Of a stretch of 64,000 nucleotides of DNA, positions 8,521 to 60,307 are shown piece after piece; position 1 is the first letter of the stretch, and each line of letters starts with the position of its first letter. The notes under the pieces are model-generated. The model searched no databases and had not been told where the DNA came from. It was given only the letters and a program-made list of their open reading frames with translations. This DNA comes from Akkermansiaceae bacterium (GTDB lineage Bacteria > Verrucomicrobiota > Verrucomicrobiia > Verrucomicrobiales > Akkermansiaceae): the NCBI GenBank assembly GCA_013041925.1, contig JABDRB010000021.1, positions 1 to 64,000 on the forward strand. The letters run 5' to 3'. The position numbers and the translations under genes are program-made.

Positions 8521-8592
8521 CCCGCGCAACCACCCACCCCGGGACGGCGGCTTGCTCACGCCAGCGCCGACAGCGATTGCCCTTTTCTCAAC

Positions 8593-8688
8593 TTATTCAG
8601 AGGTTATTCACATTCTCGATGCGCCTTGATCCTTGTGACGCTCGATTCTCGGCGGTGACTTATTCACAGATTTTCTCACTTACTCACA
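8593..8688 (+). promoter_or_regulatory. Cluster of DnaA-box-like 9-mers upstream of dnaB
   Basis: Two exact TTATTCACA sequences (8604-8612 and 8660-8668) match the general bacterial DnaA box TTATNCACA. One-mismatch copies lie at 8593-8601 (TTATTCAGA) and 8680-8688 (TTACTCACA). The first pair is spaced 11 bp, as in the array at 57.5 kb, which also contains the TTACTCACA variant. All sites are on the same strand within 135 bp of the dnaB start, so DnaA control of dnaB or a secondary DnaA-binding locus is plausible (inference). Confidence 0.6.
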
Positions 8689-8727
8689 TTGACCTTTTCC
8701 GTCTTTGTCCTCAATGTGGCGCTCCTT

Positions 8728-10200
8728 ATGGCCACCGACTCTCCATCCAAACTCTCACCGGGCTCGTTTAGCAACGACAAAGGCCCAGCCCTACAGAAAG
8801 CGCCAACGGCCGAAGATCACTCATCTGCCGCGCGTGCCTTGCCCCACGCCATGGGCCCCGAGAAGAGTATTCTCTCGTCGATGTTTCAGGATCCACAAGA
8901 ATACATTGCGCAGGCCGTCGAAAACAAGCTGACAGAGGAGCATTTTTACCATCCGGCACACGGTGCCCTGTTTTCCATCCTGATGGAGTCGTTTGAAAAA
9001 AATGAACCCGTCGAGTTGGTTTCGTTTTCGCAGACATTGATGGATCGCGGCGTGATGCCCTCGGTTGGTGGCCCGGCTGCGATCACAGAGATCTATACCT
9101 ACTCCCCGACCCACGCCCACTTCCTGCATCACCTTGATATCGTTAAAGATAAGTATGTGCTGCGCTCGGTGATCAAGCACTGCACCGAGGCCATCACACG
9201 CGCCTACGATGACCAAGAGGAAGTCGAACAACTACTCGACAATGTTGAGCAGCAGGTCTTGGCCATCCGTGAGGGCGCGGAAAAAAATCAGGAGGTTACG
9301 GTCGAGCAATCCGTCGAGCAGGTTATTGACATGCTTCAGGATTTCCTCGCAGGAAAAGGTCAAGGCAATGGCATCCCCACAGGCTACAAGGAAATTGATA
9401 AAATGTCCAGTGGGCTCAAGGCGGGTGAGATGTTTGTTGTAGCAGCACGTCCGTCGATGGGAAAAACGTCATTTGCCATGAACCTGATAGAGCACATGTG
9501 CCTTGACCAAGGGCACTCCTCGATGGTGTTTTCCCTGGAGATGAGTTCGATACAACTCGTTGAGCGCCTGCTCTACGCCCGTGCCCGATTCGACAAATCC
9601 AGCCTGATGAAAGGCTACAAACCAGTCAAAGCGGATTTACTCAAAATCAAACGGGCCTCAGAGGAGATCAAGGAATGTAAGCTATTCATCGACGACACCC
9701 CATCGATCAGCATCAACGAACTGCGGGCCAAGGCACGCCGGAAGAAAAAAGAAGCCGACATCAAGGTGATCGCCGTGGATTACCTCCAGCTTATGCGGTC
9801 GAACTCAAAACAGGCACAGAATTCACGGGAACGTGAGGTGGCTGAAATCTCCGCCGGTCTCAAAGGCCTCGCCAAGGAGTTGGAAATCCCCATCATTGTA
9901 CTAGCCCAGTTAAACCGTGGTCCTGAAAGCCGTGTGGGGACTAGCGGTGGCGGAGGAAAACCCCGAATGTCCGACCTACGTGAGTCCGGATCCATCGAGC
10001 AGGACGCCGATATGGTCGGCCTGCTCTATCGATCGGCCTATTACGCCGACAACAAGGAAGATCGTGACGAAGAAGGCGGAAAAGCCGAGCTTGTTATCGC
10101 CAAAAACCGTAACGGTCCGACTGGTGACGTCCCACTCACCTTTATCAAGGAAATGATGCGCTTCGAGACCCGCGCGTGGGATAATGAGGAGCATGCGTAA
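8728..10200 (+). CDS. dnaB: Replicative DNA helicase DnaB
   Basis: The hexameric helicase that unwinds the fork ahead of the polymerase. The N-terminal primase-interaction domain begins near GPEKSILSSMFQDPQEY. The RecA-like domain carries the Walker A AARPSMGKTSFA, the SLEMSSIQL segment, the Walker B VIAVDYLQLM, and the QLNRGPESR arginine finger region with the DLRESGSIEQDADMV signature. The length of 490 aa is normal and there is no intein. I chose the ATG at 8728. The frame is open from a TTG at 8689, but that start would lie within the DnaA-box-like region and adds hydrophobic residues not typical of DnaB. The gene is preceded by DnaA-box-like motifs. Confidence 0.95.
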   Translation: MATDSPSKLSPGSFSNDKGPALQKAPTAEDHSSAARALPHAMGPEKSILSSMFQDPQEYIAQAVENKLTEEHFYHPAHGALFSILMESFEKNEPVELVSFSQTLMDRGVMPSVGGPAAITEIYTYSPTHAHFLHHLDIVKDKYVLRSVIKHCTEAITRAYDDQEEVEQLLDNVEQQVLAIREGAEKNQEVTVEQSVEQVIDMLQDFLAGKGQGNGIPTGYKEIDKMSSGLKAGEMFVVAARPSMGKTSFAMNLIEHMCLDQGHSSMVFSLEMSSIQLVERLLYARARFDKSSLMKGYKPVKADLLKIKRASEEIKECKLFIDDTPSISINELRAKARRKKKEADIKVIAVDYLQLMRSNSKQAQNSREREVAEISAGLKGLAKELEIPIIVLAQLNRGPESRVGTSGGGGKPRMSDLRESGSIEQDADMVGLLYRSAYYADNKEDRDEEGGKAELVIAKNRNGPTGDVPLTFIKEMMRFETRAWDNEEHA

Positions 10201-56745: not shown

Positions 56746-57156
56746 ATGATGAAAAAACAAATACTACCACTAATCATAGCCCTCGGGTTTACGAGCTGCT
56801 CCTCCATTGTCAGCAAATCAGACTACCCAGTTACCTTTACGAGTTCAAAACCCACATCCGTGAAGGTCATTGATCAAAAATCTGGAAAAGTTGTTCACCA
56901 GGCTACAACACCTACCACAACAACACTTTCCGCATCTTCAGGTTTCTTTAGACCTGCAAAATATAGCTTAATGACAAAGAGCGTGAAGAAAAACTTGAAT
57001 GCTAAGTTGGACTCTTGGTATGTCGGAAATGTTTTATTTGGCGGTTTGATTGGCTTTCTCATTGTCGATCCAGCAACGGGCAACATGTGGAAGCTCCCCA
57101 ATGATATAGACTTAACCCCCCAACAAGCATACAGCGTGACCAACCCATCACCCTGA
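56746..57156 (+). CDS. Small lipoprotein of unknown function
   Basis: A signal peptide with a good lipobox (LGFTSC, Cys18) opens a 136-residue protein. The mature part (SDYPVTFTSSKPTSVKVIDQ, then GKVVHQATTP) has a PEGA-like beta pattern. Near the end WYVGNVLFGGLIGFLIVDPATGNMW is a hydrophobic hairpin-like segment found in small lipoproteins of phage and bacteria. The coding sequence is AT-richer than its neighbours, which may indicate acquisition. It lies between the two direct repeats. Confidence 0.78.
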   Translation: MMKKQILPLIIALGFTSCSSIVSKSDYPVTFTSSKPTSVKVIDQKSGKVVHQATTPTTTTLSASSGFFRPAKYSLMTKSVKKNLNAKLDSWYVGNVLFGGLIGFLIVDPATGNMWKLPNDIDLTPQQAYSVTNPSP

Positions 57157-57178
57157 TCTTCACACACCCCCCTCACCC

Positions 57179-57235
57179 CAAAGCGGCTCCGAGCAATCGG
57201 CGCCGCTTTTTTCGTCACAACACCGGATCAAATCG
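57179..57235 (+). repeat. Terminator-containing direct repeat, copy 2
   Basis: The first 34 bases are identical to those at 54576-54609 (hairpin with GCAA loop and T-run), followed by a diverged but recognisable tail. It terminates the lipoprotein gene. Confidence 0.88.
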
Positions 57236-57512
57236 ATAGTGAAGGGCATGACTGCGGATGCCCCCAAACTCCCCAGGGCCACCCAGTAGCTGGCATTTTG
57301 ATACGCGCAACCCCACTTATACCTAGCACATTTTAATTCTCTCTATCATGAGATGATTCAACCAAGGCATTACGATTGTCAGCGGGGTCATCGTCAGGGT
57401 CGTTGCCTCGGATGAGTGGATTACATCAGGGCATCTGGCCAGAGAGGGTGAGCAAGGCAACCTGAGATCATACAGCTCTAAAAAAGACTGTTAAATCAAG
57501 GGTTTAAGATGC
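57236..57512. other. Intergenic stretch before the DnaA-box array
   Basis: About 275 bp with no gene I can support. An AT-rich run (TTTTAATTCTCTC near 57331) and AAAAAAGACTGTTAAATC (57480-57497) precede the array and could serve as an unwinding region if it is an origin (inference). Confidence 0.5.
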
Positions 57513-57653
57513 TTATCCACAAACTACTCACATACTATTTACCACTTATTCATATCTTTATACACAGGTTACTCGCATTTTACTCACAACTTATCCACAT
57601 GCGCATAACCACGTGAACAAGCCGTGGATAAAGGGTGAGCAGATGGTGAATAA
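57513..57653. other. Phased array of 12 DnaA-box-like 9-mers, candidate oriC
   Basis: On the plus strand, 9-mers start at 57513, 57524, 57535, 57546, 57558, 57569, 57580 and 57591, all 11 bp apart except one 12-bp step. Those at 57513 and 57591 are TTATCCACA and that at 57558 is TTATACACA, exact consensus boxes. The others have one to three mismatches (TTACTCACA, TTATTCATA and similar). On the minus strand four more start at 57612, 57623, 57634 and 57645 with exact 11-bp steps, the best being TTATCCACG and TTATTCACC. Helical phasing, opposed blocks and AT-rich flanks suggest a DnaA filament site, either oriC or a titration locus. No dnaA is nearby. Confidence 0.6.
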
Positions 57654-57774
57654 GTGACCGCTACGATGTATCTGCCCCCTGCCCGTTGGATCGGGAAAAA
57701 TGGGGTCGACCGACTTGGCTTAAAAAAATCTAGGCAATCTCGTCAGATCGGTTTAATAACCCGACCAACAAGCC

Positions 57775-58626
57775 ATGGCAGGATTTTTCAAAAAGCTCTT
57801 TAACAAGGTATCGAATCGCGCGGAGATTGATTGGGACGAACTTGAGGCCGACCTCATTGGTGCCGATCTCGGTGCCCGCACCACGATGGGGATTGTTGAT
57901 GACCTACAAGGGATGGGCCGCAAGATCTCAGCGGACGACGTCATCGAGGTCTGTAAACAACACATTGCAGGCATCCTTGAAGAAGACCTCCCGGTGCTCA
58001 CCCCCCGCAGCGATGGCCGACCGACGGTGATTCTCGTTGTCGGTGTGAATGGAACCGGCAAAACGACCTCATCGGCAAAACTTGCCTACCTTCTTAAAAA
58101 CCAAGGGCACTCGGTGATGCTCGCGGCCGCGGACACCTTCCGGGCCGCCGCGGTCGAGCAGCTCGGTGTCTGGGCCGATCGGCTCGGGATTCCCATCGTC
58201 AAGGGAGCACCGAATGCGGACCCCGCATCCGTCTGTTACACTGCCCATCAAAAGGCGCTCAACGACGGCACTCAGTTTCTGATCTGCGACACCGCAGGGA
58301 GGATTCACACCCGCCACAACCTGATGGAAGAGCTCGGAAAGATCGAGCGCACCATTGGCAAGCAGGATGACGATGCACCACACCTCAAGCTCTTGGTGGT
58401 GGATGCCACCACGGGCGGCAATGCGCTTGCTCAGGCGAAGGAGTTTAACAAAGCGATCGCGCTCGACGGGTTGATCGTGACCAAGCTCGACGGTTCAGGC
58501 AAGGGAGGTGTGGCCGTGCTGATCCAGCAGGAACTTGCGATCCCGACCCAATTCATCGGGCTCGGCGAGGAGCCTGAACAATTTAAACCCTTCAACAAAC
58601 AGGAATTTGTTGAAGGGATCTTTTAA
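57775..58626 (+). CDS. ftsY: Signal recognition particle receptor FtsY
   Basis: The GTPase receptor that docks SRP-ribosome complexes at the membrane. The short 283-residue form lacks the long acidic N-terminal domain. The N-domain is followed by the G-domain motifs GVNGTGKTTSSAKLA (P-loop), AADTFRAAAVEQL, ICDTAGRIHTRHNLMEEL and TKLDGSGKGG, and the closing region PTQFIGLGEEPEQFKPF. The last codons form a hairpin terminator. The gene starts 121 bp after the DnaA-box array and converges with rpiB-glyA. Confidence 0.95.
   Translation: MAGFFKKLFNKVSNRAEIDWDELEADLIGADLGARTTMGIVDDLQGMGRKISADDVIEVCKQHIAGILEEDLPVLTPRSDGRPTVILVVGVNGTGKTTSSAKLAYLLKNQGHSVMLAAADTFRAAAVEQLGVWADRLGIPIVKGAPNADPASVCYTAHQKALNDGTQFLICDTAGRIHTRHNLMEELGKIERTIGKQDDDAPHLKLLVVDATTGGNALAQAKEFNKAIALDGLIVTKLDGSGKGGVAVLIQQELAIPTQFIGLGEEPEQFKPFNKQEFVEGIF
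58588..58624 (+). terminator. Terminator hairpin overlapping the ftsY 3' end
   Basis: CCCTTCAACAAA and TTTGTTGAAGGG (58588-58599 and 58606-58617) form a perfect 12-bp stem with a 6-nt loop, followed by ATCTTTT that runs into the ftsY stop codon. The hairpin is coding sequence for the FtsY C-terminus and lies between convergent genes. Confidence 0.85.
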
Positions 58627-58648: not shown

Positions 58649-60307
58649 CTACTCAGGCAACGGAAAATCACGGTTAAACAGGTAAACCTGCTCGCGGATT
58701 TCAGCCAACTTGGCGTCGTTGTCGTAATTTTGCAGTGCCTCGTGAATGAAGTCGGCGACTTTTTCGACATCGGGGGCCTTCATTCCGCGGGTGGTCACGG
58801 CGGGTGTGCCGATGCGGATTCCGCTAGGCTTGAACGGACCTGCGGTATCAAAGGGGATCGAGTTTTTATTCACCGTGATCCCCGACTCATCGAGGGCGTG
58901 CTGGGCGATGGACCCATCGATTCCCGCCGGACGGAGGTCGACAAGCATGAGGTGGTTATCCGTGCCGCCGGAAACAATCCGGTAGCCGTGACTCGTGAGG
59001 CGCGCAGCCATCGCTTGGGCATTTTTAACCACCTGCTCGGAATACGCCTTGAAGTCCGTGTTGAGGATCTCACCGAAGCATGCGGCCTTGGCAGCGATGA
59101 CATGCATCAGCGGCCCGCCTTGGATGCCGGGAAACACAGTGCCATCGATCTTTTTAGCATACTCCTCCTTACAAAGGATAATACCTCCACGTGGGCCACG
59201 CAGTGACTTGTGAGTGGTGGTGGTGACAAAGTCGGCGTGAGGCACGGGGTTAGGATGCACACCAGCGGCAACCAGGCCGGCAATGTGTGCCATATCCACA
59301 AAGAGATAAGCACCCACCTTCTTGGCAATCTGCGCCATACGTTCGAAATCGATCTCACGTGGGTAGGCACTGGCACCGGTTGTGATCAGCTTTGGCTGCA
59401 CCTCCACCGCGGTTTTCTCCAACGCATCATAATCGATCCGCTCGTCCTTCTCGCTGACCCCGTAGTGGGTCACCTCGTAGAACTTTCCGGAGAAATTCGC
59501 CTTGTGTCCGTGGGTCAGATGACCGCCGTGGGCGAGGTCCATGGTCAAAATCTTATCGCCTGGCTTAAGCACGGAGAAATAGACTGCCGTGTTTGCCTGC
59601 GAGCCTGAGTGCGGCTGCACGTTGGCATGATCCGCACCAAAGATCTCCTTCGCACGATCGATCGCCAATTGTTCAGCCACATCAACAAATTCACAACCAC
59701 CATACCAGCGACGGCCTGGGTAGCCTTCGGCGTATTTATTGGTTAACAGACTCCCCTGCGCCTCCATCACGGCACCGCTGGTGAAGTTCTCGGAAGCGAT
59801 CAGCTCAATGTTTTGATTCTGGCGTTGTTCCTCAGCCGCCATCGCGGCATAGAGCTCGGGGTCGGTGATCGCGAGCCTGCTTCCGGATGCCTTGGTCACA
59901 CGCGCCTGATGACGCCCGCCAGCAAAGGCCGTGTCGGTAAAGGCAGTGACCATCGCGAGCGCTTCCTCATCATCCAGATGACCCGCCCCCAAACAAAGCA
60001 CATTGGCATCGTTGTGTTCGCGGGTAGTCACCGTCTCGGCAACGTTACGGACGTTGGCACCACGGATACCGCGAAAACGGTTCACCGCCATACACATGCC
60101 CACACCGGACTTACAAATCAGGATACCTCGGTCAATATTTCCACTGACCACAGCGCGTGCGACAGCATTGGAAAAATCCGCGTAATCGACGGGATCATCA
60201 CTGCTGGTTCCGTAGTCAGTGACACAGTGGCCTGCAGCTTGCAGGTGGCTAACAATGGCGTGTTTGAGGTCTAAGCCTCCGTGGTCGGCTCCGATAGCAA
60301 TATTCAT
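58649..60307 (-). CDS. Fused ribose-5-phosphate isomerase B / serine hydroxymethyltransferase
   Basis: One 552-residue chain joins two enzymes. Residues 1-140 are RpiB-like: [10 protein letters not shown] (Asp8, His9), the catalytic Cys65 in [10 protein letters not shown] (where Lys replaces the usual Gly after Cys), REHNDAN (His98), and GGRHQARV (Arg132, Arg136). From about 146 on it is a complete Gly[48 protein letters not shown] and the PLP lysine Lys367 in [14 protein letters not shown]. There is no stop or frameshift between domains. RpiB interconverts ribulose-5-P and ribose-5-P, and GlyA makes glycine and methylene-THF from serine. tkt lies 43 bp upstream (at the 62333 start side) on the same strand, linking the RpiB domain to the pentose phosphate pathway. 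Confidence 0.93.

Follow-up and report, generated by a model that had tools for sequence, protein, structure and literature searches.

The window analysed here is a stretch of 64,000 nucleotides (bases 1 to 64000 of the 134,517-base contig C21) from an Akkermansiaceae genome of 3.28 Mb, which is assembled in 33 contigs and is 98% complete. It contains an intergenic cluster of DnaA-box-like sites between an ORF of 136 aa, ending at 57156, and the gene ftsY, starting at 57775. The features of this locus are as follows.

56746 to 57156, plus strand: ORF of 136 aa upstream of the array, lipoprotein-like by eye and without a Pfam family
57457 to 57512, no strand: AT-rich DNA with 37.5% GC, to the left of the outermost exact box; by position only, a candidate unwinding element in case the site were an origin
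57513 to 57599, plus strand: eight DnaA-box-like 9-mers that form the plus half of the array, with steps of 11, 11, 11, 12, 11, 11 and 11 bp
57600 to 57608, minus strand: additional box TTATGCGCA with 7 of 8 matches, 12 bp from 57612 and abutting the plus half
57612 to 57653, minus strand: minus half of the array, four 9-mers with a step of 11 bp, converging on the plus half
57775 to 58626, plus strand: ftsY, encoding the SRP receptor GTPase of 283 aa (PF00448, PF02881)

An earlier note on this DNA had described eight 9-mers on the plus strand and four on the minus strand in 11-bp steps (one of 12), and all twelve sites are present where it had placed them. The plus-strand sites start at 57513, 57524, 57535, 57546, 57558, 57569, 57580 and 57591 and match the eight fixed positions of TTATNCACA at 8, 6, 5, 7, 8, 6, 7 and 8 positions, respectively (in 5' to 3' order), so that the three boxes which had been called exact (57513, 57558 and 57591) are indeed exact copies of TTATNCACA. 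The minus-strand sites at 57612, 57623, 57634 and 57645 have 6, 7, 4 and 7 out of 8 matches, and two sites of the array are weak, namely 57535 (5/8) and 57634 (4/8). The short spacer that had been proposed between the two halves does not exist, as the gap is filled by a fifth, overlooked minus-strand box at 57600. Furthermore, the AT-rich flanks that had been noted were found on the left (57457-57512) and also inside the plus half, which itself has a GC content of 32.2%, while the right flank (57654-57774) reaches 51.2% GC. The start of ftsY lies 122 bp past the last base of the array. Inspection by eye and with Pfam revealed no replication gene among the close neighbours of the array, and dnaA, correctly described as absent from the vicinity, sits on another contig, C22.

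The phasing of the array is far above chance and specific to a step of 11 bp. Scoring DnaA boxes in 11-bp phase as chains, separately for each strand, gave 16.0 for the plus half and 6.0 for the minus half, compared with a maximum of 5.0 in each of two sets of controls, 150 Markov-resampled versions of the 64-kb window and 5000 resampled versions of the intergenic region. A scan of 1,076,214 bases in 54 stretches, representing about a third of the genome, identified six chains with a score of at least 6 at step 11, with the ftsY array at the top (16.0), followed by chains on C22 (13.5), upstream of dnaB (6.5) and on C29 (6.5), the minus half of the array itself (6.0) and a site at a ribonucleotide reductase beta-like gene (6.0), which is still included in the six. 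At steps of 8, 9, 10, 12, 13, 14 and 15 bp, the numbers of such chains were 0, 0, 1, 1, 1, 0 and 1, with 7.0 as the highest score, and those at steps 10 and 12 are pieces of the window's own arrays. Moreover, when up to three mismatches were allowed, a pattern of two boxes in 11-bp phase had 26 matches in this genome (one of them again the ribonucleotide reductase site) versus 4 for the reversed control, and with up to two mismatches at least 55 of 58 genomes contained a match, with 0 to 3 control matches per genome, among the matches listed.

In the accessible parts of the respective papers, E. coli DnaA is described to bind pairs of boxes spaced by 2 or 3 bp (PMC11317965), and DnaA of T. maritima to form dimers and complexes best on boxes of the same direction with a 2-bp gap (PMC10316083). 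Gaps of 2 and 3 bp between 9-mers correspond to steps of 11 and 12, and thus the array, with its same-strand boxes 2 or 3 bp apart, has the spacing of cooperative DnaA binding; the earlier claim that the phasing suits an ordered DnaA oligomer agrees with the gaps published for these two organisms. Going by the available text of the sources, the published spacing rules found come from E. coli and Thermotoga. Among viral contigs, three exact boxes in tandem occurred in at least 120 stretches at step 11 and at least 120 at step 12, while a step of 10 gave 7 such stretches and a step of 13 gave 4, and this concentration makes the spacing look like a general constraint. The best chains on the viral contigs with tandem boxes (L315-L434, L439-L557) mostly comprise 3 to 8 positions, with a few of up to 15 and one of 30; four of these contigs (L323, L365, L393 and L347) were confirmed as phage by portal, terminase or head proteins, and L361 has a helicase/primase match. 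Tandem boxes on viral contigs might represent phage-borne DnaA sinks or recruiters. The genome itself has a single dnaA, and the encoded protein of 508 aa contains DnaA_N, ATPase and C-terminal box-binding domains and aligns to solved DnaA structures, with 8btg as the best match. The C-terminal DnaA motif, which we take to be the part that reads the box, is DHGTV in all eight genomes checked (L296-L303) and DHTTV in 8btg.

Sites of the GTATCCACAAATTATTAACA type are common to many relatives and near-identical among them, and in this genome they form a two-site element (L028 9660-9720). This element, located by eye upstream of the ribonucleotide reductase beta-like gene, mimics phased DnaA boxes and presumably resembles NrdR boxes, and it was therefore set aside from the DnaA argument. 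That an NrdR-like site also looks phased means that phase alone is no proof of DnaA. In this respect, the ftsY repeats could be bound by a protein other than DnaA, such as a plasmid Rep protein acting on iterons, or could be a decayed relic, and both the variation among the boxes (4 to 8 matches of 8) and the phased-looking NrdR-like site speak for it. We nevertheless regard this as very unlikely, considering that the repeat unit is the canonical DnaA box at the published DnaA spacing, that such boxes recur upstream of dnaB, and that no plasmid record matching 57480-57700 was found.

An established bidirectional origin is expected to show a change in the sign of the skew. The earlier note had taken the array for a candidate chromosomal origin and proposed GC skew as a check, and along C21 the raw GC skew is below zero in every 4-kb window. 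As the coding strand also shifts the skew, third-position skew was computed per gene strand and the two strands were then averaged, which gave -0.27, -0.29 and -0.28 to the left of the array and -0.17, -0.37, -0.36 and -0.26 to the right. On the 134.5-kb contig, the skew hence stays negative to either side of the array, without a sign change there, and this absence is independent of skew polarity. The weakest block (-0.17) adjoins the array on the right, where minus-strand genes alone gave +0.04, and in 1-kb windows the skew at 58.0-62.5 kb, where the genes are on the minus strand, is near zero (-0.06 to +0.04) over the 4-5 kb that adjoin the array on this side. Where 20 kb around an array locus was available, the raw skew in no case turned from minus to plus.

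An origin at this site, chromosomal, second or newly acquired, would require DnaA to fill the two converging halves and to open the AT-rich sequence to the left of 57513. Its geometry resembles that of E. coli oriC as presented in the accessible part of a review (PMC4285127), a strong outer box lies beside the 37.5%-GC DNA, the array scores best in the 1.08 Mb scanned, the skew directly to its right is near zero, and a young origin could precede any skew change. However, the negative skew on both sides, in raw 4-kb windows and after strand correction, and the lack of a replication gene close to the array argue against it, and no origin was located in the approximately one third of the genome covered, which leaves no known oriC for comparison; overall, we consider an origin at the array distinctly unlikely. 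The dnaA locus was likewise rejected as the origin, as dnaA-dnaN, located near C22:173-176 kb, show no skew switch and the nearest exact box is about 35 kb off at C22:140009, although the lack of any exact box within that distance of dnaA also counts in favour of an origin at the ftsY array. No exact boxes were found in the 2.4-3.2 kb around the DnaA C-terminal domain in seven relatives, stretches which barely extend upstream of dnaA.

Elsewhere in the genome, the strand-corrected skew turns from plus to minus on C22 at approximately 100-125 kb (L012, L013), near groEL- and dnaK-like genes. This change, about 50-75 kb from dnaA, is the clearest sign change in the part of this genome covered and would be terminus-like if the leading strand is G-rich; whether it marks a terminus or an origin depends on the polarity. 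In G031, a genome in one contig, both rRNA genes are plus-strand genes and fall into the half with positive skew, which fits a G-rich leading strand, although the strand-corrected skew at the two rRNA places is about zero. In the genome studied here, 11 of 15 tRNA genes are on the C-rich strand, as are 50.9% of the coding bases, an even share, and these counts do not fix the polarity. A scan with a dif consensus gave nothing exceeding background. The skew minimum of G031 falls within approximately 3.3-3.85 Mb, too blurred to indicate a site, and this region contains single exact boxes and no cluster.

Conservation next to ftsY, the second check that the earlier note had suggested, was examined in the 600 bp upstream of 108 ftsY loci including our own, with orientation determined by tblastn and a phased chain defined as a score of at least 5. 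None of the 107 other loci has a phased chain and one has an exact box, whereby the 107 loci represent fewer than 107 genomes because two collections overlap, and L041, L099 and L105 are too short upstream of ftsY to accommodate the array. Thus, nothing conserved supports a role of the array in the control of ftsY. The closest genome by dnaB (G010, 93%) gave no ftsY match, nor did G007, and with no ftsY to compare in G010 the array could be shared with that genome. The closest FtsY among named contigs belongs to Akkermansiaceae/Verrucomicrobiales. Upstream of ftsY in 78 relatives' loci, the acnA-like, 491-aa and 136-aa ORFs had no match (E 1e-10) except for a weak acnA match of 34% (L134), a result to be read in view of many loci spanning 5 kb or less, so that acnA could be out of reach, and of the 136-aa ORF possibly being too short to detect. 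Downstream, glyA-tkt-hisG follows ftsY in L066, L071 and L136. The array may accordingly lie near a synteny break, with genes upstream of ftsY that may differ from those of relatives, a point which would suit a recent origin, whereas the missing conservation of the array at ftsY argues against an origin. On the minus strand, the window further contains a single ORF of 552 aa (58649-60307) which by eye begins RpiB-like and continues as a serine hydroxymethyltransferase (GlyA)-like protein, with 85-88% matches in L066, L071 and L136. Since skew switch and conserved position were both tested and both are lacking, we do not file the array as oriC, and the candidate origin of the earlier note is rejected as the main reading.

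Phased boxes are also found upstream of dnaB, at the opposite side of the window, where two further features are of relevance.

8582 to 8688, plus strand: a second group of DnaA boxes in the window, located ahead of dnaB, with boxes at 8593, 8604, 8660 and 8680
8689 to 10200, plus strand: dnaB, replicative DNA helicase (PF03796, PF00772); the ORF list has it start at a TTG, and translation may in fact begin further inside

The phased chain in this cluster starts at a weaker site, 8582. Examining 600 bp upstream of dnaB in 30 loci out of 36 genomes with a dnaB match (L239 and L248 with less than 300 bp upstream), we found that 18 of the 23 loci belonging to the family (11/13 in the genus, 7/10 in the rest) have an exact box, compared with none of the seven from other families. 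A chain score of at least 5 was reached in 8/13 loci of the genus, 2/10 of the rest of the family and 0/7 of other families, and phased arrays upstream of dnaB also occur in G003, G005, G006, G009, G012, G013 and G026. In Caulobacter, the DnaA regulon includes dnaB (PMC8203912). The recurrent boxes suggest that the family couples helicase supply to DnaA.

Additional arrays were identified at the mraZ-mraW division cluster, approximately 0.15-0.3 kb before mraZ in the genome studied here and in G001 and G002, and 1.2-2 kb before mraZ in G012 and G013. Within up to 1400 bp upstream of mraW, 5 of 28 loci have a chain, all five in the genus (28 of 30 loci were counted, L279 and L281 being dropped as too short). 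Other arrays are located at gene ends, such as the one at the 3' end of the DUF455 gene (C29 of this genome; G001, G002, G007) and the one-strand array at C22:69429-69526 (L007 9429-9526), which has nine chain positions with seven good boxes and sits between the 3' ends of a convergent SDR gene and Na/H-exchanger gene. G010 carries an array of ten chain positions (L153 9684-9794) in the same SDR / Na/H-exchanger context. In G012, a partly 11-bp phased minus-strand cluster (L149 9909-10033) lies by eye past the 3' end of a SecA-like ORF, and the ORFs flanking it matched none of the other array loci compared. G022 belongs to a different genus of the family and carries on C4 (L164 9284-9371) a chain of eight positions in phase, with a score of 12.0.

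Considering that some arrays lie between or past the 3' ends of genes, not all of them are promoters, and those at C22, DUF455 and G012 favour the role of a sink over that of a promoter element. The earlier note had offered a DnaA-titration site as its alternative to an origin, and the ftsY array could serve purely as a sink for DnaA, or could switch the nucleotide state of DnaA in the manner of datA or DARS, and would then take no part in ftsY transcription; its many boxes, its intergenic position, the lack of conservation at ftsY and the comparable long array between the SDR and Na/H-exchanger 3' ends in this genome and in G010 are all in line with such a role. On the other hand, ftsY begins only 122 bp past the array, and the boxes with the best conservation, those at dnaB, lie upstream of their gene, so that we retain the pure sink as a tentative alternative and a somewhat unlikely one. 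A further idea is that the array mimics an origin or is an ectopic one, having arisen recently in a single lineage at a distance from the origin that the skew defines, with oriC-like converging filaments beside AT-rich DNA. It would then fire as a secondary origin or act as an orisome-like decoy, and the same grammar of phased boxes would mark dnaB as well as, in some species, the division-gene cluster; we consider this idea unlikely.

The explanation that we prefer, with a probability of roughly 0.5, is that the array forms a nucleoprotein site with DnaA away from the origin, which would make nearby transcription responsive to DnaA and act as a local sink for the protein, and at which replication would not start. 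The sites, their phasing and its rarity, the other arrays and the missing skew switch are observations, whereas DnaA binding, its cooperativity and any influence on ftsY or on the pool of free DnaA are what we infer. DnaA would nucleate on the exact boxes at 57513, 57558 and 57591 and on the better minus-strand boxes, and the weaker in-phase boxes would then be filled cooperatively, because each neighbouring box is 2-3 bp away and on one face of the helix. Two DnaA filaments could thereby grow toward each other and meet at 57600, so that the array might hold roughly a dozen DnaA molecules and its occupancy would be coupled to the DNA directly upstream of ftsY. Such an off-origin filament can be expected to block or stimulate transcription and to hold DnaA, and the other phased arrays of the lineage may act likewise as DnaA-responsive elements and sinks. 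The link to ftsY is the weakest step of this explanation, because ftsY has no conserved array, no plus-strand sigma-70-like promoter was found between array and ftsY, and several arrays are at 3' ends. The phylum may use other promoters than the sigma-70-like type searched for; in 57100-57800, two sigma-70-like matches were present against a chance expectation of 0.9, and both are minus-strand matches.

In comparison with known systems, E. coli oriC is close in layout, which comprises two arrays in opposite orientation with strong boxes at their flanks (PMC4285127), as far as the available text of this review goes. On that basis, both have two opposed arrays with strong outer boxes and AT-rich DNA at one end, whereas the ftsY array lacks a skew switch, a conserved position and a middle box between the halves. 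It would work like the paired arrays of oriC in geometry, but going by the two tests of skew and position we do not class it as an oriC. In the titles and abstract openings of the papers found on Verrucomicrobia DnaA boxes and replication origins and on Akkermansia oriC and DnaA, no such arrays are addressed. The double DnaA-box regulatory sites of E. coli, judged from the accessible part of PMC11317965, share the spacing of 2 or 3 bp and the location upstream of genes, but they are pairs, in contrast to the eight plus four (or five) predicted sites of the ftsY array with its converging halves. According to the portions available of two further sources, datA, DARS1 and DARS2 are loci of DnaA titration or switching (PMC12371093, PMC4585315); the ftsY array is similarly a DnaA-box cluster off the origin, predicted to be able to hold many DnaA molecules, and differs from them, as described there, in its strict phasing and in the lack of conservation of its position at ftsY. 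The boxes upstream of dnaB are of the same kind, follow the same 11-bp phase and stand in the same genome as those of the ftsY array, but they recur across the family, occupy one strand and are shorter, while the ftsY array was found in its own genome only. As a long, strictly phased and two-sided array away from the origin, it offers a natural test of how a DnaA filament may behave without a replication start.
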